Source: Agarophyton chilense (lineage: Eukaryota; Rhodophyta; Florideophyceae; Gracilariales; Gracilariaceae). Taken from it: a stretch of 64,000 bases of DNA. The position numbers and the translations under genes were made by a program. The stretch covers positions 186,001 to 250,000 of the forward strand of contig JARGXX010000002.1 in the NCBI GenBank assembly GCA_030374765.1. The letters run 5' to 3'. This document shows, one piece after another, positions 4,951-57,900 of this stretch (positions within the stretch are counted from its first letter, which is position 1; each line of letters opens with the position of its first letter). Below the pieces are notes generated by a model. That model was not told the origin of the DNA. It worked only from the letters and a program-made list of their open reading frames with translations, and made no database searches.

Positions 4951-7900
4951 AGGGGGTCGGCTCTAGTCGATCCCGTAGTGCTGACCAGAGAGAGCTCGCC
5001 TCCCTGCTCCCGAGATTGGAAGCCCAAGATTCTCTTGAGGCCTCCCAAATTTCTGCCGTACGGAATCAATGCGCCGGACGGAAAGCGAGTACAGTTTGAT
5101 AGTGAGTTACATTGTCCTTGGAGACGTTATACTTGTCCGTCAAAACGGGAAAGCTACCTCATGGTAGTGCCTAAAAGAAACTATAAGGTCTATGCCGACA
5201 TCGGCTCGGACAGGAATACTATCCTGGACACAGGTGCTGGTCCGAACTTTATACGGGAATCGTAGCTCTCTCCTGCTGCCTTAGAACGTATTCGATACGG
5301 TTCTTTACCGGATATCCGGGATGCCAACAAAAATGCTGTGAAGAAACTGGGAACAGTTCGACTCGTGGTGCGTTTGGGATGCTTTGTAGTCCTAGTCGAC
5401 TTCATCGTCTGTAAGACGTTAGCTGCACCAGTGGTACTGGGATGTGATTATTGCGACAAGTTTGTCGAAGCCATTCGCCCGCGAAGAAAACTAGTCGAAC
5501 CAGATGATGGATCAATGGTACCCATTGTTCGCAAGCCAATGCGTCGTTGCTCTGAAGCACCTCCACTTCCACCATCTATGAAATACGGGAAATCCAGAGG
5601 ACGTGTCTCACCGAGGATTCGAGTAGCGAAGAGTGCCATGCTAAAGGCGCAAACCCTAACTTGGGTTCAAGTAAGAACAGAACGACACGGACTCGTGGTA
5701 ATTCAACCGAATACTCGGATGTACGAATCCCGTGGATTGCTAGTCGCTGACGGCATTGTTCAGGTTGATCCTGGTAGCCCCTTTTGGATACTAGTGAGTA
5801 ACTTCACCGATAACGATTATCAGATACCGAATAATCAGGTTGTTGCAACAGCTTTGCCTCATCCCACAGTGGTGGTCCCTACTCTTATTTCTAATGCAGA
5901 AGTATAGGGATTAACCCATGTCGGTGACACAGACCAAGAACTGCAAACTCCATCTGGAGATCAATTGCAAACGGCAAAGGATCCAGAGAGCCTGGTCGAT
6001 CAGCTAGACTTAGCACATGTGTCGGAACACTACAGAACAAAGATCAGGTCTATGCTGAAGAAGTATACATCCATTTGGAGTGGAAAACTAGGAGAGATCT
6101 CCGCTACAGAACACCACATTGATTTGGTCCCAGGGTAACGACCCATCTCCCAACCACACTACAGAGCGGGACCGCGAACTTGCCAAATCGAGGAGAAGAA
6201 TGTCAGCAAAATTATGGAAGAAGGAGTAATCGAAGCAGCTCAATCTGCTTGGGCCTCACCAGTGGAGCTAGTTCCAAAACCTGATGGTTCTTTACGATTC
6301 TTTATCGATTATCGAAAACTGAACGCAGTTACAGTTCGAGATACATACCCGTCGCTTCGAATGGACGAATGTATTGACAGCTTAGGAGAAGTGAACGTGT
6401 TCACCACGTCGGACGCCAACTCTGGCTATTGGCAGGTGCCTGTAGCAGAAGAAGACAAAGATAAAACCGCATTTGCGTGTCACGATGGTCTCTACCGTTT
6501 CAAAAGGATGCCCTTTGGCCTAACAAATGCACTGGGTACTTTTCAGCGTACTCTAGACGTCTTGCTCTCAAGATACAAGTGGAAGACTTGTTTAGTCTAT
6601 TTGGACGATGTGATCATCTTTTCCCAGGATGTGGAAAGCCATTTACGGCATGTCGAGGAGATCCTCAAAGCACTACAGAGCGCAGGTATCACCTTGAAGT
6701 TCAAGAAATGCGAATGGTTCGCTGGCACCGTCCGGTACTTAGGACACGTGATCAAGCCGGGACAGCGTTCCATTCAAGAGACACAAACAGCGGCTCCCCG
6801 CGAAGTACAACCTCCGTCGATACAGAAGCAATTGCGTTCTTTCCTCGGCTTCTGCAACGTCTACCAACGATTCACGCCGCGATACTCGCATATAGCGGCA
6901 CCGCTCAACGCAAAGCTGCATAAAGGACCACCAGTACAGCTGGAACAATTCAGACAAGCTGAAGTGGAAGCGTTCGACACGCTGAAGACAAAGATTATTA
7001 CAGCCCCAGTCTTGGCGCTGCCCCTCCCCAACCTGCCATACTCAGTGGATACCGACTCTAGCGAGTACCAAGTAGGGTGTGCCCTTTTTTAAACACACCC
7101 CGATGGTGAACGAAAACCCATTGGATACTGGTCAAGATTGCTGAACGCAGCTGAGAAGAAGTATTCAGTTTCAGAAAAGGAATGACTTGCAGTCGTTTGG
7201 GCTCTAACCACATTGCGACCGTATCTCCAAGGAGAACGTTTTACCGTCAACACGGATCATTCGTCTCTACGATGGTTACTATCCATTACAGACCCGCCTG
7301 GTCGTCTCACACGATGGCGCTTACGCCTTTCTGAACGATTTCGAAGTGAAGTATAAGAAGGGATTGGCCAATGTCCAAGCTGACGCGCTATCGCGACTCA
7401 AAACACTGGGCGAAACCCAAGGCGAAATCGATGAAGAGATACCTTGCTTCTACATGGAGACCCATCCACCATCTTTTGAAGAAGAGGAACAAGAGACCCT
7501 TGATGATTATTCGGATGCAGACCCGTTCCTTTCATTAGCAGACACTGACCCTTCAGTTCAACTCGAGCGAATCTCGTGCACTGAGCTCCTCAATGAGCAG
7601 CACGCCGATACGTTTTGTGCGTCGATACGCTCTCGTCTTAACGGGGGGGAGGAGCTCCCCTTTTCACTCGATTCACGAGGAATACTGTTAAGACATGTCG
7701 AAAAGCATGATCAAATCGTGATTCCACACGTCTTGAAGAGTCGAGTACTCCATCTGGCACACTACAGCAGGCTGTCTGGTCATCCAGGAGGAACGAAGTT
7801 GTTCATGACTCTAAGAAGAGATTTTTACTGGCCTATTTTGGCAATGGAATGCCATGCTACAGTGAGGTTGTGTACAACATGTGCGAAGAATCGCGTGAAG

Positions 7901-9735
7901 CTTTACAGGAAGCGGAAACCGATGAAGTTATTCCAGGCGAAAGCGCCTTTACAATACGTCAGTATCGACATCCTAGGGGAATTGATTCGCTCAAGGCGAG
8001 GTTATCGCTACCTATTGGTAATCACCGACCGCTTCTCGAAGCTAGTGCGGACTGTGCCGCTGAAGCGTATAACTGCAACCGTAATCGCACAGGCGTTTAT
8101 CAAACACTGGGTATTTATATACGGACCACCAGAAGTTCTGTTATCAGATAATGGGAAGCAATTCGTTGCGAAGTTCTTTCAGAATGGTTGCCGCATTATG
8201 GGCATTCGAAACGTGTTTACCACGACCTATCATCCGCAATGCAACGTTCAGGTGGAGCGTTTCAACCGCACGCCGATAGCAGCACTACGACACTACATCG
8301 CGGACCACCCGAAAGAATGGGAAATGTTTACAGATACTCTGTGCTACGCGTACAATACCCAAGTGCATACCTCTACAAAGACGGCACCGTTCGACCTCGT
8401 GCTCTCACGTAACCCTCCGGCTTTATCGGTTGCGCTCGACGACGAGACAGAATTGGACGCGACGACCCCGGCTGAGTACCATCTAAAATGGAGGAATGAC
8501 CTGAAGGACAGAGTGGAAGAAGCCGCTAAAGAGTTATCGAAAACGCAAGCTCGCTATAAGCGAAACTATGACGCCAGAAGGCGAAGAGGAAATCCGGCAA
8601 TCCGAGTAGGAGGTCACATCTTCGTGCGAGTTGAAAGACCGGACAAACAGGAAGAATCTCGTCATAAGTTGTTGCCGATAGCGGCTGGACCCTTCAAAGT
8701 GGTGGACCTTGATGAAGACACAGTGGTCATCAAGACAGGTGAGGACGTTGAACGTGTATCGCGCGATCCCGTTGAAGTCGCACCGACCCGCAAGTGGAAG
8801 TCCAGGTATCTAGTAGAACTAAGGAGGCAAGTGCGACGGAACGTCAAGGCAAAAGCCCATGTGACTCTGGGGAGAGTGAACCGCCACCAATGGCTCGAGC
8901 GGAGGAGAAAGCTCCTGATCTCCCACCGCCGGCGGTTACGTACGCCAATCACGGACCACTTCCGAAATATCGGGATATGCCCCGTGGCACGCACACACCC
9001 GTACGTACAGAAATGGAACCTGAAAGCAGGAAAGATGTTTTGGAATTTGGCCCCAAGGACTTGGAAACGAGTGCACGCGAACACGCGCCGTTGCCGCTTC
9101 AGGCTGAACCGTCAGGTGAAGCGCCACTCGCTGTTCCGCCGATATCAGCTCCCATCTCTCGTGGGCAGGAAGAAGAAGAGGTATCGCCTCCTGTCGTGGT
9201 GCAAGCACCATCGTCCACCGAACAGCGGTCAGAATCGGATAAACCGAAGGAAGTTCATCCACGAATGGAATTGAGAAGTAGCAAGAAGTACGCTTCTATG
9301 GAACCTGGAAAACAGGATAGCACTTTTTCTGAGAAAGGTTCTCAAGGAATGAGTACACTGCACCTGCGGGCATAATGAAAGTTAGTCGACGAGCGAACGC
9401 TTAGCGACGCTGAGACTGCTAACACAGAGACGCTTGGGTCAGCCCTAAGGCATTTTAAACCTGTTAACAGGAGTCTCGCGCCAACAGCGAAAGCATTCGG
9501 AAATGCCCAGGAATATGTTATGGATCGCATATGTGAACATGGCGAGCATGAAGATACTAGAGAATTACTGTATCGAGTCCGTTGGTACGGTTTTCCTCCG
9601 GAAGTGGATACGTGGGAACTAATAGCTCATATCTCCCGTTCGCAACTCGTGCGATATCATCGACGCATGCGACTACCTCTCCTCAGGGAGATCGACTCCT
9701 CGACGGTCGGGCTCATGGGCACATCCCATTTCTAA
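4951..9735 (+). pseudogene. Element B pol: protease, RT, RNase H, integrase, chromodomain; broken
   Basis: Pol lies in frame -1 relative to gag. Domains in order: aspartic protease (ILDTGAGPNFI near 5225), reverse transcriptase (FFIDYRKLNAV, YWQVPV, YLDDVII near 6600), RNase H (VDTDSSEYQVG near 7050), integrase zinc module (H-H-C-C, ending LCTTC near 7880), DDE core (YVSIDILG near 7965, LLSDNGKQF near 8140), GPY/F module (AGPFKVVDL) and C-terminal chromodomain (YRVRWYGF, DTWE near 9570-9620). Breaks: stops at 5263, 5905, 6136, 7090, 7183 and 9373; a 2-base loss near 7335 and a 1-base loss near 8788, both judged against element C. These enzymes copy element RNA and insert the DNA. Inactive as read. 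Confidence 0.9.
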
Positions 9736-16529: not shown

Positions 16530-18192
16530 TCAGCTATCACCACTTTCTACAAAGTTGTCACGCCCAGAGACCATCTTCACCGATTCTATCCTATCCCCAA
16601 CTTCAAACTGTGGAAGGAATTCTTTACCCTTATCCACGTACCCAAAAGTGGACAGGCTTCCGGTTAACACACTTCCGCCAAAAGACCTGGCCTGATATGA
16701 CGTTGGATCAAGCATGAAAAAGTAGAACTGTGAAGAAGCGTCATTTGCATCTTCCACACTGTGTACCATTACCATTGCGCCGAATGCAGAAACAGGTAGA
16801 ACAGGTTGTAAATCACCTATCCCAAGCTCGTCTAAAGTTGCACCGTATGCAGGTGACGATTCCCCGTCCACTAGGATTTCAAGAGGAATTTGTCTTCTCT
16901 TTCCTGACTGCGGGTCTTTGAAGCCCTCAACGTTGTCATCTTCTCGTTCTCCCATTTGAACGAAAAAGTCCTTTTGCTTCGCCAGAATTCTTGTGTTGTC
17001 ATAGTATCCACGGCGCGCAATGTCTACAAAATTACCACAGGTCAGCGGCGCTGAAAACCCGTCCAGAACGACAGTCATTGTTAGGTCCTTTCCAAGTGAT
17101 GTCAAAGTCTTTGGATCTCTCCATGTTGCATCTCCTCCTTTTTTCATGTTGAGCTGCATGACAGCTCTGCCAACAAGGCGTGGAAAGCTGCACGGGACTC
17201 GTCCGCCAAAAAGCAGGTTAGTTTCGAAGTTAGCAGGAGCCAAACAAAATGCATGGCAATTCATGCGTTGTTGTCTGTCAATGGAATGTAGACGTACGTG
17301 TTATACCGACGTGGAATCTTGAAGGGCAACCCAATGCCTTCCACAGCAAGTTGCTCAATGTTCGCAACATGGTCCAAAGCTTTTTGTCTGAATTCTTCCA
17401 CTAAAGTAGCTGGGAAAACAATGCGCAAAAAGAAACGCATGGTGAGAATGCGAGGAATGTGCGTGTCGCAATTTGGGAAAGCAAAAGATGTCCAAAACAG
17501 AGGAGGAACATACCATCGTAATTCGTCTTCTTGGACATGGAGTTTCGCCGCTCAAATGCATCGGATAGGGTTTCTTGAACTCTAGAAAGTTGAGGGGGAA
17601 ACAAGTTGCTGTTTGCGGGCGCAGACGAAAGCTGTAGTTCTTCTTCAATTTCGGATACACAGCTCTCCAACGCGGAGAGAGATTGGGCTGCTACTTGTCG
17701 TTTGCTGGCGGGCACATCCAATAGTACATCCAATCTAGCTGCAGTCAATAGATCCCGGAGTTTTTGCACATCTCTTCTACCGGAAATTAGCCCCGCTGCT
17801 CCACGGGAGCGCAAATCAACTCCTAGGCGCTCTAGTTGTTCTTGGATTCGACGAATCGGAATGGCATCTGTTGAATAGCGTTCGCTGGGTATCGGGAGTG
17901 AGTAGCGAAGGATGGCGTCTGAATCCGTAATGAGATAGCGACGGAATATGGTATTGGTCGATAGCAAGCCTTTTGCTTGTGTGCTGGAAGGGGGTAACAA
18001 CAGCAAAGCCGCTGCTGCAGTAGCTGCTGTGGCTGCTGCGATTGCAGTGCGGTGCGATGGAGACCGTGAGGAACAACTTGGAGCCGTCGGAGAAGAGATT
18101 ACAAAGCGAGGCCGCTTGACAATGGGTACCGAAGATCGGTAAAGAAAAGCGACTGCCGCTCTCGACGATTGAGACGCATCAGATGTTGGCAT
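16530..18192 (-). CDS. CYP38: Thylakoid-lumen cyclophilin-type protein, CYP38/TLP40 family
   Basis: Three exons (18192-17514, 17409-17307, 17187-16530) joined by introns of 104 and 119 bp give 479 residues. The N-terminus is Ser/Arg-rich (plastid transit-like), followed by a hydrophobic Ala/Leu run ending STQAKG, like a lumen signal with a cleavage site. A helical region covers residues about 110-270, then a cyclophilin-like domain (VLDGFSAPLTCGNFVDIARRGYYD, IPLEILVDGE, YGATLDELGIG, FGYVDKGKEFL, GDRIESVKMVSG). In plants CYP38 helps assemble and protect photosystem II; its isomerase activity is weak or absent. An earlier ATG at 18267 is possible, but its extra residues are acidic and not transit-like, so I prefer 18192. 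Confidence 0.9.
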
Positions 18193-18461
18193 TTCGGTGA
18201 AGTTGTTGGGCTTCTCTGCCTTTCGCTCGCGTGGCGATTTATTATGATGCCCGCAATCGCATATCATTCGAGCAAAAGCTTGGCATCTATTGTAACATTT
18301 GGCGTTAGTTGTGCATCATCAGCTATGGCAAAATCTCCATCGAGATTGCGTAGCGCAAGTGTCCAAAATGAACGGTTGGAGTTGAAGGGCTTTGAAAATC
18401 GGCTATTTTTTTATGTATAATAACAGTTATAGTTGCCCTCTATGTCAAGGAGAGCGACGTC

Positions 18462-18537
18462 AGCTGAGGTTCCGGGTTCGATTCCCGGCGGGCGTACATG
18501 AGCGCCTGTAGTCAAATGGTATGATATCAGCCTTCCA
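18462..18537 (+). tRNA. Circularly permuted tRNA-Gly (anticodon UCC)
   Basis: The 3' half comes first: 18462-18496 holds base 38, the 3' anticodon-stem strand GCTGA, variable loop GGTT, T arm CCGGG-TTCGATT-CCCGG, acceptor strand CGGGCGT and discriminator A. After a 5-base spacer (CATGA) the 5' half follows at 18502-18537: acceptor GCGCCTG, TA, D arm GTCA-AATGGTA-TGAT, A26, anticodon strand TCAGC and loop CTTCCA with anticodon TCC at 18534-18536. Read in the order 5' half, 3' half, the acceptor gives 7 pairs (two G-T), the anticodon stem 5 perfect pairs and the T stem 5. The break falls at 37/38, the canonical tRNA intron site. Flanks 18447-18454 and 18546-18553 are complementary over 8 bases. 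Neither half completes a normal tRNA in linear order. Confidence 0.88.
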
Positions 18538-18557
18538 AGAAGGCTCTCTCCTTCCCA

Positions 18558-18564
18558 TTTTTTT
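18558..18564 (+). terminator. RNA polymerase III terminator of the permuted tRNA
   Basis: A run of seven T, 20 bases after the 5' half of the tRNA. B box (in the 3' half) and A box (in the 5' half) occur in reversed order upstream of it, as expected if the permuted gene is transcribed as one precursor. Confidence 0.6.
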
Positions 18565-18673: not shown

Positions 18674-19999
18674 ATGCAAAAAACAGCCGAGTCCATGGAT
18701 TCGCCTGGGTGGGATCCTGGGGCGCCGCTATGGGGTGGATTAGATCATCTTCTTCGAAATGCGGGACCACTTTCCGCTGATCTCAGAGTTGAAGGTGCTG
18801 ATTCTACAGAAACATTTCTTCGTCAGCACTGCAAAGTTCTTATCATAGGTGCAGGTGGTCTAGGCTGTGAACTCTTAAAAGACGTTGCCCTTTCAGGCTT
18901 TCGCCATATCCATGTCATTGATCTCGATACTATCGATGTCACCAACCTCAACAGACAGTTTCTTTTCCGTTCGACTGACGTGGGAAAGTCAAAGGCAAAA
19001 GTTGCTGCAAAGTTCGTCAACTCACGAGTGCCAGGATGTTGTGTCGTTGCTCACCATGCTAACATAATGGATTTTGACAGTGACTTTTATCAACAATTCA
19101 ACATCGTTATTGCAGGACTTGATTCCGTCGAAGCACGTCGATGGTTAAATGCGTTGTTGGTTAGTTTGGTCCAGTACAATGCTGATGGTACAATTATTAG
19201 ATCTTCTGTCATACCATTGATTGACGGTGGCACTGAAGGATTTCAAGGTCAGGCGCGTATCATATTCCCGCGTTTTACATCGTGCTTTGAATGCACGCTC
19301 AACCTGTTTCCCCCGCAACAAAACTATCCATTCTGCACAATCGCAAACACCCCGAGACTACCTGAACATTGTGTCGAGTACGCCAACGTCATTTTGTGGG
19401 ACAAACTCAAGCCTTTTGGAGATGTCAAATTGAACATGGACAATATTGAGCACACGAAGTGGATGTACGAAACCGCAAAAGCTAGAGCCGAGCAATTTGG
19501 AATACAAGGTGTAACTCTGCGATTAACTCAAGGTGTTGCAAAAAACATCATTCCAGCTGTAGCCTCAACAAACGCAATTGTAGCCGCGGCCTGCGCTAAC
19601 GAGGCGCTCAAAATGATCTCCTGCGTAGCAACGAACATGGATAACTATATGATGTATAATGGAACGATTGGGGTATATACATATACTTATAAGAATGAAA
19701 AGAGGGCAGACTGCCCAGTCTGTGGAGTTCCGCAACCAAAGACCTTGAACGTTTCGGGCTCAGATTCTCTAGCTGAGTTCCTTGAGCAAATAGCGGCAGA
19801 CCCTGACATCCGCTCTAGGAAGCCATTCTTGCGTTCAAACACTGGTAAGACCCTGTACGCGTCCACTGCTCCACTCCGAGAGGCAACGCGACTAAACTTG
19901 GAAAAGAAGCTCAACGAATTGATAACTTCTGGCACAGAGGTTACATTAGCGGACAAAGATTTGCCCTTCATTCGAACTCTAGTCATTAACTACAAATAG
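18674..19999 (+). CDS. UBA3: NEDD8-activating enzyme E1 catalytic subunit (UBA3)
   Basis: 441 residues, no intron seen. The N-terminal ThiF/UBA fold has the ATP-binding VLIIGAGGLGCELLKDVALSGF motif (about 54-75) and the DLDTIDVTNLNRQFLFR stretch that contacts nucleotide. The catalytic cysteine lies in NYPFCTIANTPRLPEHC, exactly as in UBA3 of other eukaryotes; a zinc-binding cysteine pair occurs in ADCPVCG, partnered by CFEC. The C-terminal part is a ubiquitin-fold domain that recruits the E2 UBC12. With APP-BP1/AXR1 the enzyme activates NEDD8 for cullin modification. Starts about 110 bp after the permuted tRNA; ends about 130 bp from the convergent AP-3 delta gene. Confidence 0.95.
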   Translation: MQKTAESMDSPGWDPGAPLWGGLDHLLRNAGPLSADLRVEGADSTETFLRQHCKVLIIGAGGLGCELLKDVALSGFRHIHVIDLDTIDVTNLNRQFLFRSTDVGKSKAKVAAKFVNSRVPGCCVVAHHANIMDFDSDFYQQFNIVIAGLDSVEARRWLNALLVSLVQYNADGTIIRSSVIPLIDGGTEGFQGQARIIFPRFTSCFECTLNLFPPQQNYPFCTIANTPRLPEHCVEYANVILWDKLKPFGDVKLNMDNIEHTKWMYETAKARAEQFGIQGVTLRLTQGVAKNIIPAVASTNAIVAAACANEALKMISCVATNMDNYMMYNGTIGVYTYTYKNEKRADCPVCGVPQPKTLNVSGSDSLAEFLEQIAADPDIRSRKPFLRSNTGKTLYASTAPLREATRLNLEKKLNELITSGTEVTLADKDLPFIRTLVINYK

Positions 20000-44591: not shown

Positions 44592-45710
44592 ATGGGTGAC
44601 ACAACCTTCACAGGTACAGATCCTACTGCGATAATTGAGTTTCTACAGAAGTTCAAGCTTTCATGTGACCAAAATGGGTTTTCCGAGGGCGCTGCAATGT
44701 GGCTATTTCAGTTTTATCTTAAACGACAAGCATACTACTTGCTGCAGGGTTGGCTCCGCGGCAACATCTTAGTGATGGATGAGGATGACACGGAGATGTT
44801 GGAGTCATACCCAGAAGTGGTCAATTTCTTTTTGGAAACGTACGCCATCGATGAGGTTATCCAAGAGGCTGACTCGGAAGTCCTCGCTCACCATCAAAGG
44901 TCTGGGCAAACTGAATCGGATTTTTCGCTCGCGCTTTGGAATCTGGCAACCCGTTGTGGTAATGTGTTCACTACCTCGAGGTTAAAGTCGCTATTTGCCG
45001 ACAATGTCGACAAAGCGATCCGTTCCCAGGTACGCAATTACCTGGCCACTAACCGAAAGGTAGACTACAATGGCCTGGCTCGATACTCCCAGGGCCTTGG
45101 AGATACCCTTCGGCTGGGAAAGAGACCAGCCATGCCTCCAACCTCGAAGGATAAACCGAAAAGGCCAATCTTGGAAATTGAAGACACAACAACCTCAGAG
45201 GGTAGCTCGCACATCGAAGTACCTACAGGAACCGCTATCCACTTGGTGGCGACCCAGGGGCAGTTCTCGAAACCGTCGACGGTAGGAAATTGGTCGTCAA
45301 CGCGTATACCAAACTCGGTACAATCGCCGCCAGGTTCGGTGAGCTCGCACAGGATGCCAGGAGCGAGCTCCCATAGCTCGCCCGCCACCTCCTACGCCAC
45401 TGCCCCTACCAACCAGGTTTCGAAGCCCCTTTCATTGGTAACACGAGACCCTCAAACTGAAGGCCTCGTTTGCTGGTTTTGTCTCGCGACAGACCATTTG
45501 GAAAACAATTGCGCTAACTTACCTCCAGGGATGAGAGACCAGTTGATTCAGGCTCGCATGCAGAATCACCAGCGCCTCTGTGGGTCTTCAACGCAAGCAC
45601 CAAATAGGTTCCAACCCCGTACACCGGTACAGGTCAATACGATCGAGGAAACACCCAACTTGGACTCAACCCCTCCCGTACAGGAGGAAAACACCGAGCG
45701 GTTGGCGTAA
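44592..45710 (+). CDS. Element D gag (capsid and CCHC nucleocapsid)
   Basis: 372 residues, open from ATG to TAA. The first 190 residues are helical and capsid-like (AIIEFLQKFKLSCDQNGFSE; FFLETYAIDEVI; SDFSLALWNLATRCGNVF). A Ser/Pro/Thr-rich linker follows, then the knuckle CWFCLATDHLENNC (CX2CX4HX4C) near residue 295. The stop TAA overlaps the pol ATG as TAATG at 45708-45712, which suggests that pol is reached by stop-restart coupling or by a -1 shift. This is the only gag in the window without an internal stop. Confidence 0.85.
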   Translation: MGDTTFTGTDPTAIIEFLQKFKLSCDQNGFSEGAAMWLFQFYLKRQAYYLLQGWLRGNILVMDEDDTEMLESYPEVVNFFLETYAIDEVIQEADSEVLAHHQRSGQTESDFSLALWNLATRCGNVFTTSRLKSLFADNVDKAIRSQVRNYLATNRKVDYNGLARYSQGLGDTLRLGKRPAMPPTSKDKPKRPILEIEDTTTSEGSSHIEVPTGTAIHLVATQGQFSKPSTVGNWSSTRIPNSVQSPPGSVSSHRMPGASSHSSPATSYATAPTNQVSKPLSLVTRDPQTEGLVCWFCLATDHLENNCANLPPGMRDQLIQARMQNHQRLCGSSTQAPNRFQPRTPVQVNTIEETPNLDSTPPVQEENTERLA

Positions 45711-48165
45711 TGGCCGAACCCAACCTGAAATCGGAAGGCCAATCGATACCCAGAAGCTTGAAGGTGGAAGAGAACACGTCACAACCAGTTCCGGTTTGTC
45801 ATATGAAGTACAACAACTATAAAGTACGTGCTTCAATGGGTTCCTCCGATGGCCTTGCGGTTCCGGTCACCTGCGTGCTGGATACGGGGGCCAGCCCAAA
45901 CTTGCTGAACTCCCGCGTCATACCTGAGGCGGTGCTTCGGAACTTGAGCCGAACTCCCGACAACAACCCGCTGGTGGATGCAAATGAGCGCCCATTAAAC
46001 CTTCGAGGTATGCTCACCACTGTGGTGCAGCTCGGACACCTCAAGGTAAGACTGAAATTCTTTGTTGTCGACCGTTTACCGACAGACTGCCTACTCGGTA
46101 CGAACTTCATTGACAGACATGTCAAAGCAATCCTTCCTGGTTCCCATACAGTCGCCCTACGTCAGGGGGGACGAATTGCCATTTTAGGTAGTACGGAAAC
46201 CAAACGGGGATGGTTCGTCAAACCGAAGAAGACGATATCTACCGAAACGGTCTCCAACAAAGTGCGCATTACCAAACAGTTTGTTATCCCGCCAATGCAC
46301 CAAATATTGGTACCGGTGTCGTGTGCGACCCCCGGACTGATCATATTACGAAGCCATCCGAGGTTAGCACATCGACACCTCACCTTGATGGCTTACGGGA
46401 TTGTCGACAACATCCCAAATCAACCCTTTAAGGTGTGTCTCAGCAACTTCAGCAGTCATGACATGAAGTTGCCGAAAAATACCAATGTTGGCATCGCACT
46501 ACCGGCACCACAAGGGGTCTTCACCGTAGCTCACACTGATCTCTGCGAGGTCGCCCTCGATAAGGAAGGGGGGTGCGCAAATGCGTCCACAACCACAAAG
46601 TTATCGATAAATACCAACTTGGAAGGGAAAGTAACCGATAAGGCATCGGTAGACAAAGAAAAGAAACCGGACCCTGAGAGGCAATGGCAAGATACAGTCC
46701 AGATTGGTGAAGAAAACGGCCAACTGCGGGGCCGTATTAACGACCTTCTGGAGGAGTTCGAAACCATGTGGTCAGGCCATCTGGTCCAAATTAAGGCCAC
46801 ACAGCACCGCATCGAGCTCCTCCCTGAATCGAAGCCGATTTACCAGCAACCATCTCGAGCAAGTCCGAAGGCGAGAGAGATAGAACTCAAAGAAGTAGAG
46901 CGAATGCTCAAAAAAATGGGTAATTGAACCAGCCAACTCAGATTGGGCTAGTCCCGTGGTTCTGGCTCAGAAGGAAGGGGGATAACCGTGTGAAGTTTTG
47001 TGTGGACTACAGGAGGCTCAATAGCGTGACGATCAGGGATTCGTACTCGATACCTATAATGGATGAGTGCATCGACTCCTTGGGAGATGCGCAGATTTTT
47101 ACCACGTTGGATGCCAATTATGGTTATTGGCAGGTACCCGTAGGTGAAGAAGATCGAGACAAAACGACCTTCACGTGACATGCAGGGTTGTTTCGCTTCA
47201 CGCGGATGCCTTTCGGGTTGCACAATGCTCCAGCCACCTTTCAAAGGGCGCTGGACATCATCCTTTCGAAGGTTAAATGGACAACGGCCTTGGTATACAT
47301 CGATGATGTAATCATCTATTCCAGATCGGTAGAAGAGCATTTTGCACACGTACGCACCGTACTAACCCTCCTAGCTGAGACGGGGGTGACGCTGAAGCTA
47401 CGCAAATGCGTCTTCTTTACCAGAACGGTTGAATACCTGGGACACATCATAGGTCCTGGTACCCTAGAGGTTGCGCCAAGCAACATTAAAGCCGTACAGG
47501 AGGTCAAGTTGCCACGATCCCAGACAGACGTACGATTCTTTATAGGTTTATGTAACGTCTATCGTCGCTTCGTGAAGGGATTCGCGAAAATAGCGGCTCC
47601 CCTCAACAAGAAGCTCCAGAAAGGTGAACCTGAATGGTTTGAGAATCTATCGAACGAAGAAATGGACACCTTTGAGAAATTTAAACGAGCGCTGTTGTCG
47701 CCGCCAATCTTAGCGTTACCTAAAACAGGTCTACCATACACACTGGATACAGATGCATCCCATGCCCAAATTGGTTGTTGTCTCATGCAAAAGCAGCACA
47801 ACGGATACAAATTACCTATAGGATACTGGAGGCGCGCTATGAATAAGGCGGAGCAAAACTACAAGGTAACCGAGAAGGAATGTCAAGCAGTAGTGTGGAG
47901 CATTTTGATGCTCCGTCCATACCTTTATGGTGAGCGCTTTACGTTGCGCACGGACCACGACGCCTTAAGGTTGATCCTCGGACTCGCAGATGCGTCTGGT
48001 AGACTTTCCCGTTGGAGGTTGAGACTCTCGGAGTTTGAATACGACGTACAGTACCTTCCAGGTATCAAGCACAGTATAGCTGTTGCTATGTCACGCTTAA
48101 ACACTTCAGGGTTAGAGACAGAACCGGTGGACGATGATATCCCTTGCTTTTTGGTGTCATCAAAC
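45710..48165 (+). pseudogene. Element D pol: protease, RT and RNase H, integrase missing
   Basis: Starts at the ATG overlapping the gag stop. The protease has VLDTGASPNLL near 45880. Reverse transcriptase motifs are readable: IEPANSDWASP, KFCVDYRRLNSV, YWQVPV and YIDDVII (near 47300). RNase H follows (LDTDASHAQIGC near 47750; LRTDHDALRLI). Two single-base shifts near an A run (46911) and a G run (46976) and a TGA at 47176 break the frame. After DDDIPCF (48140), the point just before the integrase in B, the element runs straight into the antisense ORF. Confidence 0.88.
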
Positions 48166-49670
48166 CAACGTCTGAGCAAATGCTTTGCCTACAGGACTTT
48201 CGGTTTCGACAATAACCTCGCCAGAAGGAATATTCTTTTGGGCGACCGGCGGTTTATACGAGAGCTCATCCTGAGGAGCAGCGCCTGGAAGAGCTGGAGG
48301 AGGGGAAGTAGTCGGCAATACCGCAGCGGACTTGACCGGAGGATGAACACTCTCTACGGGTAGGACAAAGGGATCTTCACCGAAGGATTCTCCGTAGGAC
48401 ATACCAGCAGGAACTAACGGCGTGGCTTCCACATCAAGCTCGGAGCACAGAAGATCGAAACCAATGGCCTTCGGATAATAGTCGGGCACATGACGCCTCA
48501 GAATGTCCGATGGTTGATTCCTCAAAGGCTTTGCGGGATAGGCACGAGCGTCGTCCCGACCCTGATGATGCAGGGGAATCGGCGTGAATAAGTCGGTATC
48601 CCAGTCATACCAAAGAAACCAGGGAGTCTCGCCCCACTCCACCTGTAGGACATGATCCAAAAGGGCCTCGGTCTCCTCGACGTCGAACTGAGTCCCACGG
48701 AAGATATTATGGATGCCCAGGTTTCTTAGGAAGCGGATCATGATGTCCGGGAGTGGGATTAGGCGACCTAGAGGACCGGGTATGTTCTCATCGTACCACA
48801 CCCTTCAATCCTCCAAACGGACATTAACACGGATTCCGTACTTCGCGGTATCCAGAAAGGCCATAAGGGAAATCCCGCCGAACTCAACGACGAGTATCTG
48901 CCAGGACAGCCACGACCTTCGGTCATTGTCATGGCCCATGAGTTGGGACGAGTGGTACTCCACCATGGACAGCGTGAGAACCTGAAAGAGCGACGAGACA
49001 CGGCAATACATGGCCCATTGGTTCTCATCCACGTGGGGTAGCGAGAGGTACAACGGAAGGCGTTTGTCTGCGCTCATGTCGTGAAACTCTACTTGGTGCC
49101 AACAAAAAAGAAGAACCCCAGGGATTGACGCAGATGACCATCGGGCTCGTGCAGCTCGTTCCAATAGACCCGGTTGGACATACAGAACAAGCGGTCATAC
49201 GGCGGCCCGAAGCACATAAGCGCCAAAAGGTTGTGACCAGCTGGAAGAAAGCGCACATGAGGCGAGATGAAACCCGTGTATAGATCCGAGAGGAGTTTGG
49301 TCACCCTGAACTGGTATTCGGCTTCCTCCTCGCAGCGGAAGTATAGCATGTCCGCTTGGATTAGGGTGCAACATCGCGTCGCCGAACGCGGATGCACAGG
49401 ACAATGCAACCATCGGTTATACCAAGAGACGCTGCGGGCGTTCTTGCTGCCCCTCTTGAAATCGGGTATTTTTGCAAACCTTCGGGCGTCGAGATACGTA
49501 TGACAAAACCGCCGGTACTCTTCCACAGAGGACGGGGGAGTGGCATGAAGCAGTGCCCGCGGATTCCGTCCGATGGTATGATCATAGCGGTCCCAGGGAC
49601 GTTCGTAAGCCACTTGGTATCCCGAGGAGCTCCCCGTTTGGTTGTTCGAAGCCATGGTGTTGCTTCCCAC
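48160..49670 (-). pseudogene. Element D antisense ORF, homologue of the A/B/C antisense protein
   Basis: About 500 codons on the minus strand, start ATG 49670 or 49655, stop TGA at 48160-48162 overlapping the pol tail. A frameshift in a T-rich run near 49110 and a TGA at 48802 interrupt it. By eye it matches the B protein in order: GRNP...YRRFCHTYLDARRF against GRDP...DDALIQQYV; EAEYQFRVTKLLSDLYTGFI against EARTQFTELMYQRLHRFI; WQILVVEFGGISLMAFLDTA against WTVVYTEFIAKMAVFLLWDA; RVWY shared; FLWYDWDTDLFTPI against FVWYDPWTRQLITP. The C-terminus is Pro-rich. Function unknown. Confidence 0.78.
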
Positions 49671-54906: not shown

Positions 54907-57900
54907 TTAGAAATGGGATGTGCCCATGAGCCCGACTATCGAGGAGTCGATCTCTCTGGGGAGTGGTAATCGCATGCGTCGATGATATCGCACGAGTTGC
55001 GAACGGGGGATATGAGCTATAGGTTCCCACGTATCCGCTTCCGGAGGAAAACCGTTCCAACGGACTCGATACAGTAATTCTCTAGTATCTTCATGCTCGC
55101 CATGTTCACATATGCGATCCATAACATATTCCTGGGCGTTTCCCAATGCTTTCGCTGTTGGCGCGAGACTCCTGTTAACAGGTTTGAAATGCCTTAGGGC
55201 TGACCCAAGCGTTTCTGTCTTAGCAGTCTCAGCGTCTCTTAGCGTTAGCTCGTCGACTAATTGTCGTTCTGCCCGCAGGGGCAGCGTACTCATTCCTTGA
55301 GAACCTTTCTCAGACAAAGAGATATCCTGTTTTCCAGGTTCCATAGGAGCGTACTTCTTGCTACTTCTCAATTCCATTCGTGGATGAACTTCCTTCGGTT
55401 TATCCGATTCTGACCGCTGTTGGGTGGACGATGGTGCTTGCCCCACGACAGGGGGCGATACCTCTTCTTCTTCTTTCTCACGAGGGATGGGAGCCGATAT
55501 CGGCGGAACAGCGAGTGGCGCTTCACCTGACGGTTCAGCCTGAAGCGGCAACGGCGCGTTTTCGCGTGCACTCGTTTCCAAGTCCTTGGGGCCAAATTCC
55601 AAAACATCTTTCCTGCTTTCAGGTTTCATTTCTGTACTTACGGGTGTGCGCGTGCCACGGGGCATATCCCGATATTTCGGAAGCTGTCCGTGATCGGCGT
55701 ACGCAACCGCCGGCGGTTGGAGATCAGGAGCTTTCTCCTCCGCTCGAGCCATTGGTGGCGGTTCACTCTCGCCAGAGTCACTTGGGCTTTTGCCTTGAAG
55801 TTCCGTCGCACTTGCCTCCTTAGTTCTACCAGATACCTGGACTTCCACTTGCGGGTCAGGCGCGACTTCAACGCGATCGCGCGATACACGTTCAACGTCT
55901 TCACCTTTCTTGATGAGTACTGTGTCTTCATCAAGGTCCACCACTTTGAAGGGTCCAGCCGCTATCGGCAACAACTTATGACGAGATTCTTCCTGTTTGT
56001 CCGGTCTTTCGACTCGCACGAAGACGTGACCTCCTACTCGGATTGCCGGATTTCCTCTTCGCCTTCTGGCGTCATAGTTTCGCTTATAGCGAGCGGGCGT
56101 CTTTGATAACTCCTTAGCGGCTTCTTCCGCTCTGGCCTTCAGTTCATTCCTCCTTTTCAGATGGTACTTAGCCGGGGTCGGCGCGTCCAATTCTGTCTCG
56201 TCGTCGAGCGCAACCGGTAAAGCCGGAGGGTTACGTGAGAGCACGAGGTAGAACGGTGTCGTCTTTGTAGGGGTATGCACTTGCGTATTGTACGCGTAGC
56301 ACAGAGTATCTGTAAACATGTCCCATTCTTTCGGGTGGTCCGCGATGTAGTGTCGTAATGCTGCTATCAGCGTGCGGTTGAAACGCTCCCCCTGACCATT
56401 GCATTGCGGATGATAGGATGTAGTAAACACGTTTCGAATGCCCATAATGCGACAAACATTCTGAAAGAACTTCGCAACGAATTGCTTCCCGTTATCTGAT
56501 AACAGAACTTCTGGTGGTCCGTATATAAATACCCAATGTTTGATAAACGCCTGTGCGACTACGGCTGCGGTTATCCGCTTCAGCGGCACAGTCCGCACTA
56601 GCTTCGAGAAGCGGTCGGTGATTACCAATAGGTAGCGATAACCTCGCCTTGAGCGAATCAATTCCCCTAAGATTTCGATACTGACGTATTGTAAAGGCAC
56701 TTTCGCCTGGAATAACGTCATCGGTTTCCGCTTCCTGTAAAGCTTCACGCGATTCTTCGCACATGTTGTACACAACCTCACTGTAGCATGGCAGTCCATT
56801 GCCAAAGTAGGCCAGTAAAAATCTCTTCTTAGAGTCATGAACAACTTCTTTCCTCCTGGATGACCAGACAGCCTGCTGTAGTGTGCCAGATGAAGTACTC
56901 GACTCTTCAAGACGTGTGGAATCACGATTTGATCATGCTTTTCGACATGTCTTAACAGTATTCCTCGTGAATCGAGTGAAAAGGGTAGCTCCTCCCCCCC
57001 GTTAAGACAAGAGCGTATCGACGCACAAAACGTATCGGCGTGTTGCTCATTGAGGAGCTCAGTGCACGAGATTCGCTCGAGTTGAACTGAAGGGTCAGTG
57101 TCTGCTAATGAAAGGAACGGGTCTGCATCCGAATAATCATCAAGGGTCTCTTGTTCCTCTTCTTCAACAGATGGTGAATGGGTCTCCATGTAGAAGCAAG
57201 GTATCTCTTTATCGATTTCGCCTTGGGTTTCGCCCAGTGTTTTAAGTCGCGATAGCGCGTCAGCTTGAACATTGGCCAATCCCTTCTTATACTTCACTTC
57301 GAAATCGAATTCAGAAAGGCGTAAGAGCCATCGTGTGAGACGACCAGACGGGTCTGTAATGGACAGTAACCATCGTAGAGACGAATGATCCGTGTTGACG
57401 GTAAAACGTTCTCCTCGGAGATACGGTCGCAATGTGGGTAGAGCCCAAACGACTGCAAGGCATTCCTCTTCTGAAACTGAATACTTCTTCTCAGCTGCGT
57501 TCAGCGATCTTGACCAGTAACCAATGGGTTTGCATTCACCATCAGGGTGTGTTTGAAAAAGGGCACACCCTACTTGGTACTCGCTAGAGTCGGTATCCAC
57601 TGAGTATGGCAGGTTGAGGATGGGCAGCGCCAAGACTGGGGCTGTAATAATCTTTGTCTTCAGCGTATCGAACGCTTCCGCTTCAGCTTGTCTGAATTGT
57701 TCCAGCTTTACTGGTTGTTCTTTACGCAGCTTTGCGTTGAGCGGTGCCGCTATATGCGAGTATCACGGCACGAATCGTCGGTAGACGTTGCACAAGCCGA
57801 GGAAAGAACGCAATTGCTTCTGTGTCGACGGAGGTTGTGCTTCGCGGAGAGCCGCTGTTTGTGCCCCTTGAATGGCAAGGTGTCCCGGCTTGATCACATT

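Follow-up and report, generated by a model that had tools for sequence, protein, structure and literature searches.

The window, the whole stretch of 64 kb that was analysed, carries at 18462-18537 on the forward strand a tRNA-Gly(UCC) gene whose halves stand in reversed order: the 3' half (nucleotides 38-73 of the tRNA) comes first and is followed by a 5-base spacer and the 5' half (nucleotides 1-37). The 3' half (18462-18496) contains the 3' strand of the anticodon stem, the variable loop, the T arm with the B-box, the 3' acceptor strand and the discriminator A. The 5' half (18502-18537) contains the 5' acceptor strand, the D arm with the A-box and the 5' part of the anticodon arm, with the anticodon TCC at 18534-18536. 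Both halves were defined by their sequence and by a match to R2, a rotated covariance model, and both are identical in a second copy of the gene. The spacer CATGA (18497-18501), which reads CGCAA in the second copy, is expected to be removed by RNase P and tRNase Z. Its length of 5 bases at both loci falls within the range of 1-74 bases given for the intervening sequence of circularly permuted tRNA genes (PMC3978253). The rejoined tRNA keeps T8, A14, A15-T48, G18G19, T33 and TTCGA among the invariant bases, as read from the sequence with hand numbering, and its first acceptor pair is G-U.

On the same strand, a TATA-like element, TATAATAA (18416-18423), was picked out by eye 46 bases 5' of the 3' half and is a putative upstream Pol III promoter. 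The leader CAAGGAGAGCGACGTC (18446-18461), which runs from a presumed transcription start, is a putative intron-like part that would be spliced off; it contains a pairing arm, AAGGAGAG (18447-18454), followed by GACGTC adjoining the 3' half. The 5' half is followed by the trailer AGAAGGCTCTCTCCTTCCCA (18538-18557), in which CTCTCCTT (18546-18553) is the opposite pairing arm, and then by a run of seven T at 18558-18564. This Pol III-type terminator, already pointed out in the first-pass annotation, is present at that place, and six T stand at the corresponding place of the second copy.

The tRNA gene sits between a PsbQ-like frame of opposite orientation (17401-18267) and the frame 18674-19999, which begins 136 bases past the 5' half and encodes ThiF and E2-binding domains. 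The protein of the latter frame shows 69% identity to Chondrus crispus and 91% identity to Gracilaria domingensis, and because of this 91% identity the host is regarded as a multicellular florideophyte of the Gracilariales. The first-pass annotation had proposed that permuted tRNA genes would reach further across red algae if the host were a florideophyte, and the nearest protein relatives place the host there, so that the range of the trait among red algae is indeed wider. Elsewhere in the window, the long frames 6214-9274, 44592-48363 and 54907-57633 resemble, by eye, LTR retrotransposon polyproteins.

Neither ARAGORN nor an Rfam search at the gathering threshold reports a tRNA in the 64-kb window, and ARAGORN finds none in the genome-order sequence of the locus, with or without flanks. 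When the halves are rejoined, ARAGORN calls tRNA-Gly(tcc) with all four arms, which bears out the earlier claim that only the permuted reading gives a full cloverleaf. The minimum-energy structure of the genome-order 76-mer consists of the four permuted arms (-26.0 kcal/mol). For the model R2, linear nuclear tRNAs were found in the assembly by RF00005; ten of them, with no glycine tRNA included, were rotated in silico at 37/38 and aligned after rotation. Over both strands of the 64 kb, R2 gives a single match up to E 10, namely 18462-18537 (61.7 bits, E 3.2e-17). An earlier covariance model, R1, is not a fair test because the glycine genes were built into it. The permuted tRNA-Gly(UCC) with its 3' half first and a 5-base spacer, as initially annotated, is therefore confirmed by the sequence and by the sole R2 match in the window. 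The break at 37/38 is right to within one base: A38 can come from 18462 or from 18538, both of which are A.

A nucleotide search across the assembly (79.8 Mb, or more exactly 79.76 Mb, in 135 contigs) detected one other locus, C92:1271319-1271401, on a contig of 2.47 Mb. The order of the halves is the same and 71 of 71 tRNA bases are identical, while three of the five spacer bases differ. The non-tRNA bases common to both copies are GAYGTC before the 3' half and a single A following the 5' half, and the trailer of the second copy reads AACCCTTC. A BLASTN comparison of about 2 kb around each copy yields one strong match of 83 bases (79/83 identical), beyond which the flanks of about 2 kb align nowhere except for a 17-base match at E 0.54. 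Of the four differences, one is at the Y of GAYGTC and three are in the spacer, so that all of them fall among the 12 non-tRNA bases of the match; the chance of such a distribution, C(12,4)/C(83,4), is about 3e-4 as calculated by hand. R2, which was built without the second copy, scores it at 61.3 bits. Identical halves in diverged surroundings look like the outcome of selection on the tRNA halves, and gene conversion confined to the halves may be an alternative account of their identity. Because the second permuted copy has identical halves, a one-off rearranged pseudogene is argued against.

The first-pass annotation had named a linear tRNA-Gly(UCC) of identical sequence elsewhere in the genome, together with a lack of circular junction reads, as what would speak against a working permuted gene. 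Such a gene was looked for in the assembly and was not found. A search with the rejoined 71-mer against the whole assembly, with E up to 10, gives no linear match, although such a search might miss a strongly diverged gene; the 71-mer matches the two permuted loci only, as separate segments 1-37 (or 38) and 37-71 in reversed order. When the assembly was scanned for the anticodon arm, 13 places matched it with no more than 2 mismatches. Eight of the 13 were inspected, and the one tRNA among these eight is a linear tRNA-Gly(UCC) on contig C39 (227,691 bases), which is taken as the plastid genome from its size and tRNA content. A linear nuclear tRNA-Gly(GCC) lies on C37 (L102). The 36-base 5' half had no exact match in the viral or the bacterial/archaeal contig collections that were scanned.

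Further permuted genes were sought in a sample of places that carry the T-loop (B-box) motif, a search that permutations at 59/60 escape because they break the motif. R1 was run on the window and on 61 of 85 loci (all but L003, L004, L036, L052, L055, L068, L078, L084, L085 and the 15 on C132 and C133), and R2 was run on L002 and 17 stretches and then on 20 more. The best scores outside the two glycine genes are 35.8, 24.9 and 27.5 bits, compared with 61-76 bits for those two, and the 35.8-bit match falls on a linear tRNA-Lys(CUU) locus. No third permuted gene was seen by R1 or R2 in the sampled T-loop places, where the lower-scoring matches were inspected in part. The tRNA positions of C133 (53,277 bases) repeat, and this contig looks as if the mitochondrial-type C132 (26,735 bases) had been assembled about twice over.

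In a scan for TATAWAW in the 60 bases upstream (fewer at short loci) of 39 linear nuclear tRNA loci of this genome, 24 loci show a match at 6 or 7 of 7 positions, 14 of these 24 at -41 to -45; by way of background, at least 6/7 is reached by 547 of 4000 60-mers drawn at random from the window. The best scanned matches of the permuted genes are TATGTAT at -50 in the first copy and AATAAAA at -47 in the second, both 6/7. Seven T stand downstream of the first copy and six downstream of the second, and the 5-base spacers contain neither a TATA-like element nor a T stretch. For the permuted genes of Cyanidioschyzon merolae, the description is of a TATA-like element no more than about 50 bases upstream, a T stretch downstream, and neither of them in the spacer (PMC3978253). 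Both copies have the upstream and downstream signals of the C. merolae type, a 6/7 match alone being weak. As a guess from the CAAGG common to both leaders, transcription may start 12-16 bases before the 3' half. The TFIIIC B-block family has three matches of equal scores within about 31 kb (G000:C80:898432, 913027 and 929424), perhaps reflecting a local duplication of a TFC3-like gene. In C. merolae, homologues of TFC1 and TFC3 are stated not to have been identified in the account given by PMC3978253.

The flanks of the first copy had been proposed to form a helix for splicing. The 8-bp pairing between AAGGAGAG and CTCTCCTT is indeed present; however, the corresponding outer helix of the second copy, AAGG/CCTT, has only 4 bp, and shuffled leaders and trailers, with G-U pairs allowed, reach 8 pairs in 148 of 5000 cases and the 4 pairs of the second copy in 2895 of 5000. 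Because shuffles reach both helix lengths, the flank helix is weak evidence. The free fold of the first precursor has an energy of -44.6 kcal/mol, whereas forcing the cloverleaf gives -37.6 kcal/mol; the free fold places a hairpin, AGCCUUC-CAA-GAAGGCU, where the anticodon arm would be. The second precursor gives -32.3 as against -28.9 kcal/mol and uses other pairings at the junction. A possible central helix, GAYG/CUUC, has a Y-U mismatch and was not picked by the folding program. GAYGTCA is kept before the 3' strand of the anticodon stem in both copies, and this sequence would allow C32 to pair with G and a three-base bulge, UC^A, to form at the junction. Such a three-base bulge is the usual shape of the eukaryotic 3' splice site. 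As regards a possible BHB-type motif at the junction, both copies have outer helices, of lengths that shuffles also reach, and a possible C32-G pair with its UCA bulge, but the free folds adopt rival structures.

The assembly encodes a set of candidate splicing enzymes. It contains two tRNA-intron endonuclease catalytic domains (PF01974), one of which has its closest solved structures in archaeal endonuclease and Sen34 chains; the other is presumably Sen2-like, to judge from its motif. The Sen15 family, the Sen54 N-terminal family (PF12928) and RtcB each have a match above the curated cut-off. Sen15 has been reported as not found in C. merolae (PMC3978253).

The locus is very probably a functional permuted nuclear tRNA-Gly(UCC) gene with a 37/38 junction, one of two unlinked copies, and probably provides the nuclear-encoded tRNA that reads GGA codons. 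The order of the halves, the rejoined cloverleaf, the second copy, the lack of a linear match in the assembly searches, and the endonuclease and ligase genes are directly seen, and the steps of expression and processing are modelled by analogy with C. merolae. Pol III would start 5' of the 3' half from the TATA-like element and stop at the T run. The transcript would fold into a cloverleaf in which the acceptor end is closed by the 5-base spacer and the anticodon loop is open. The Sen endonuclease would cut after A37 and before A38, and an RtcB-type ligase would join 37 to 38 to produce a circular RNA, from which RNase P and tRNase Z would excise the spacer before CCA is added. The route described for C. 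merolae likewise runs from splicing into a circle through spacer removal to CCA addition (PMC3978253).

The two copies could instead be dead remnants of a tandem tRNA-Gly pair that lost its outer halves, with the remainder left unprocessed. Tandem duplication followed by loss of the outer halves is itself a proposed origin of permuted genes (PMC3978253), broken tRNA pieces do occur in the genome (for example L124, which lacks the 5' part of L123), and rival folds are available to both precursors. Against it, there are two unlinked copies whose 71 tRNA bases are identical while spacer and flanks have diverged, all arms and the main invariant bases are intact, and no linear copy was found that would do the work; this explanation is accordingly considered improbable. 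A tRNA-derived mobile or reverse-transcribed copy, originating from a circular or permuted precursor and inserted twice, is less probable again. Reverse transcription of a permuted or circular pre-tRNA has also been proposed as an origin of such genes (PMC3978253), and retroelement-like frames, recognized by eye, lie elsewhere in the window. Against this, only two copies were found in 80 Mb, their spacers differ and they share no alignable tail; moreover, a reverse-transcribed origin would not itself exclude function. A swap of the halves by misassembly can be given almost no weight: both copies come from one assembly, but they lie on two contigs with an identical order of the halves, different spacers and flanks, and a T run of their own. 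A functional permuted gene in two copies is thus the preferred reading.

Permuted tRNA genes have been reviewed as 34 genes from unicellular algae and one archaeon (PMC3978253); the same lineages are listed in PMC4033280, and such genes are also described in the green alga Auxenochlorella (PMC12633428). The closest parallel is a pair of Type II (37/38) tRNA-Gly(CCC) genes in C. merolae (Table 1 of PMC3978253). Like the two copies described here, the C. merolae genes specify a glycine tRNA, have a 37/38 junction and a very short spacer (7 bases there, 5 here) and are two genes with one mature sequence, and an upstream TATA-like element and a downstream T stretch are shared by most or all C. merolae permuted genes and by the present ones. 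The comparison was made by description and not by sequence, and the anticodon differs (UCC here, CCC in C. merolae), as do an intron in the T loop at 55/56, which is present in the C. merolae genes and absent here, and the host, which is multicellular here.

The genes of prasinophytes and of the Bigelowiella natans nucleomorph have the 37/38 junction in 20 of the 21 entries of Table 1, as here, and spacers of 5-64 bases, the spacer of 5 being found in B. natans; these entries cover Ser, Leu, Cys, iMet, Arg and Asn but not Gly (PMC3978253). Prasinophytes, the B. natans nucleomorph and Auxenochlorella belong to the green lineage and are unicellular, unlike the present host. In the archaeon Thermofilum pendens, the 3' half also precedes the 5' half with short spacers (7 and 1 bases), but the junction is at 59/60 and CCA is encoded (PMC3978253). 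Searches of the open literature on permuted tRNAs and red algae, covering mostly titles and the openings of abstracts, turned up no case from a multicellular organism, and the present gene is likely the first. The accessible text on Porphyridium and permuted tRNAs yields only a citation of a 2007 report, and a literature search on permuted genes with Gracilaria, tRNA genes and the nuclear genome found no report.

Linear nuclear tRNA genes of the same assembly show a second departure from the standard form. An insert of 11-18 bases in the D loop is present in 10 of 39 such genes (L086, L093, L098, L101, L107, L110, L114, L115, L119 and L122), which comprise Asp(GUC) twice, Lys(UUU) three times, Glu(UUC) twice, and Leu(UAA), Arg(UCU) and Arg(CCG). 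ARAGORN misses or misreads the insert-bearing genes; when the exons are joined, it reads the expected tRNA in nine of the ten (L115 was left out), the two Glu genes giving the same joined sequence. The inserts are probably ectopic introns that recall those of C. merolae, with splice sites ambiguous by a base or two. The exons of tRNA-Glu(UUC) are identical in L123, which has no insert, and in L101 and L122, which have two different inserts, and for this reason plain long D loops were rejected in favour of introns. A literature search for ectopic D-loop tRNA introns in red algae yields only PMC3978253. Canonical introns at 37/38 are present in four of the 39 genes: Ser(UGA), as called by ARAGORN, and Leu(CAA) (L090 and L120) and Arg(CCG) (L119), as recognized by reading. 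ARAGORN calls L090 and L120 Val and L119 Ile. The tRNA-Arg(CCG) gene L119 (G000:C105:19420-19640) appears to carry both a 17-base D-loop intron and the canonical 37/38 intron.

It is possible, though rather doubtful, that the nuclei of red algae have had permuted tRNAs, and introns elsewhere than in the anticodon loop, since early times, that a multicellular florideophyte has kept them, and that the two copies share an ancestral permuted gene with the C. merolae tRNA-Gly(CCC) pair. If so, the permutation would be as old as the split of the Cyanidiophyceae from other red algae. It would also need neither the loss of Sen15 nor that of TFIIIC, the florideophyte having homologues of all four Sen subunits and a TFIIIC-like protein. 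In a macroscopic seaweed, the only nuclear source of an essential tRNA may be a permuted gene, which would mean that permutation does not depend on a tiny, unicellular or extremophile genome. This gene and the D-loop introns found alongside it bring the long-standing choice between an ancient and a repeated origin of permuted tRNAs within reach of a test across red algal genomes. The present genes also suggest that tRNA genes of seaweeds may be overlooked when genomes are annotated with default settings. A codon-usage study of 2023 applied default tRNAscan-SE to four multicellular red algae (PMC10496412), and this procedure would be expected to miss permuted genes.

The 39 linear genes come from a sampling of the genome in which 63 of 3586 candidates received an RF00005 score, and the T-arm motif scans, which took only some T-arms, contributed 30 of 42 places as loci, 17 stretches from the first 100 of 474 and 20 from 81. 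Within this sample, L124 (G000:C116:470880-471100) is half of a tRNA-Glu gene about 14 kb from the intact L123 (C116:456800-457020); it consists of the 3' part and 3' flank of L123, and other sequence takes the place of the 5' part. The T-loop-like sequence GGGTTCAATTCCC recurs in every unit of a satellite of about 349 bases, which lies near contig ends (for example of C1, C2, C12 and C64) and also on C31 (L099).
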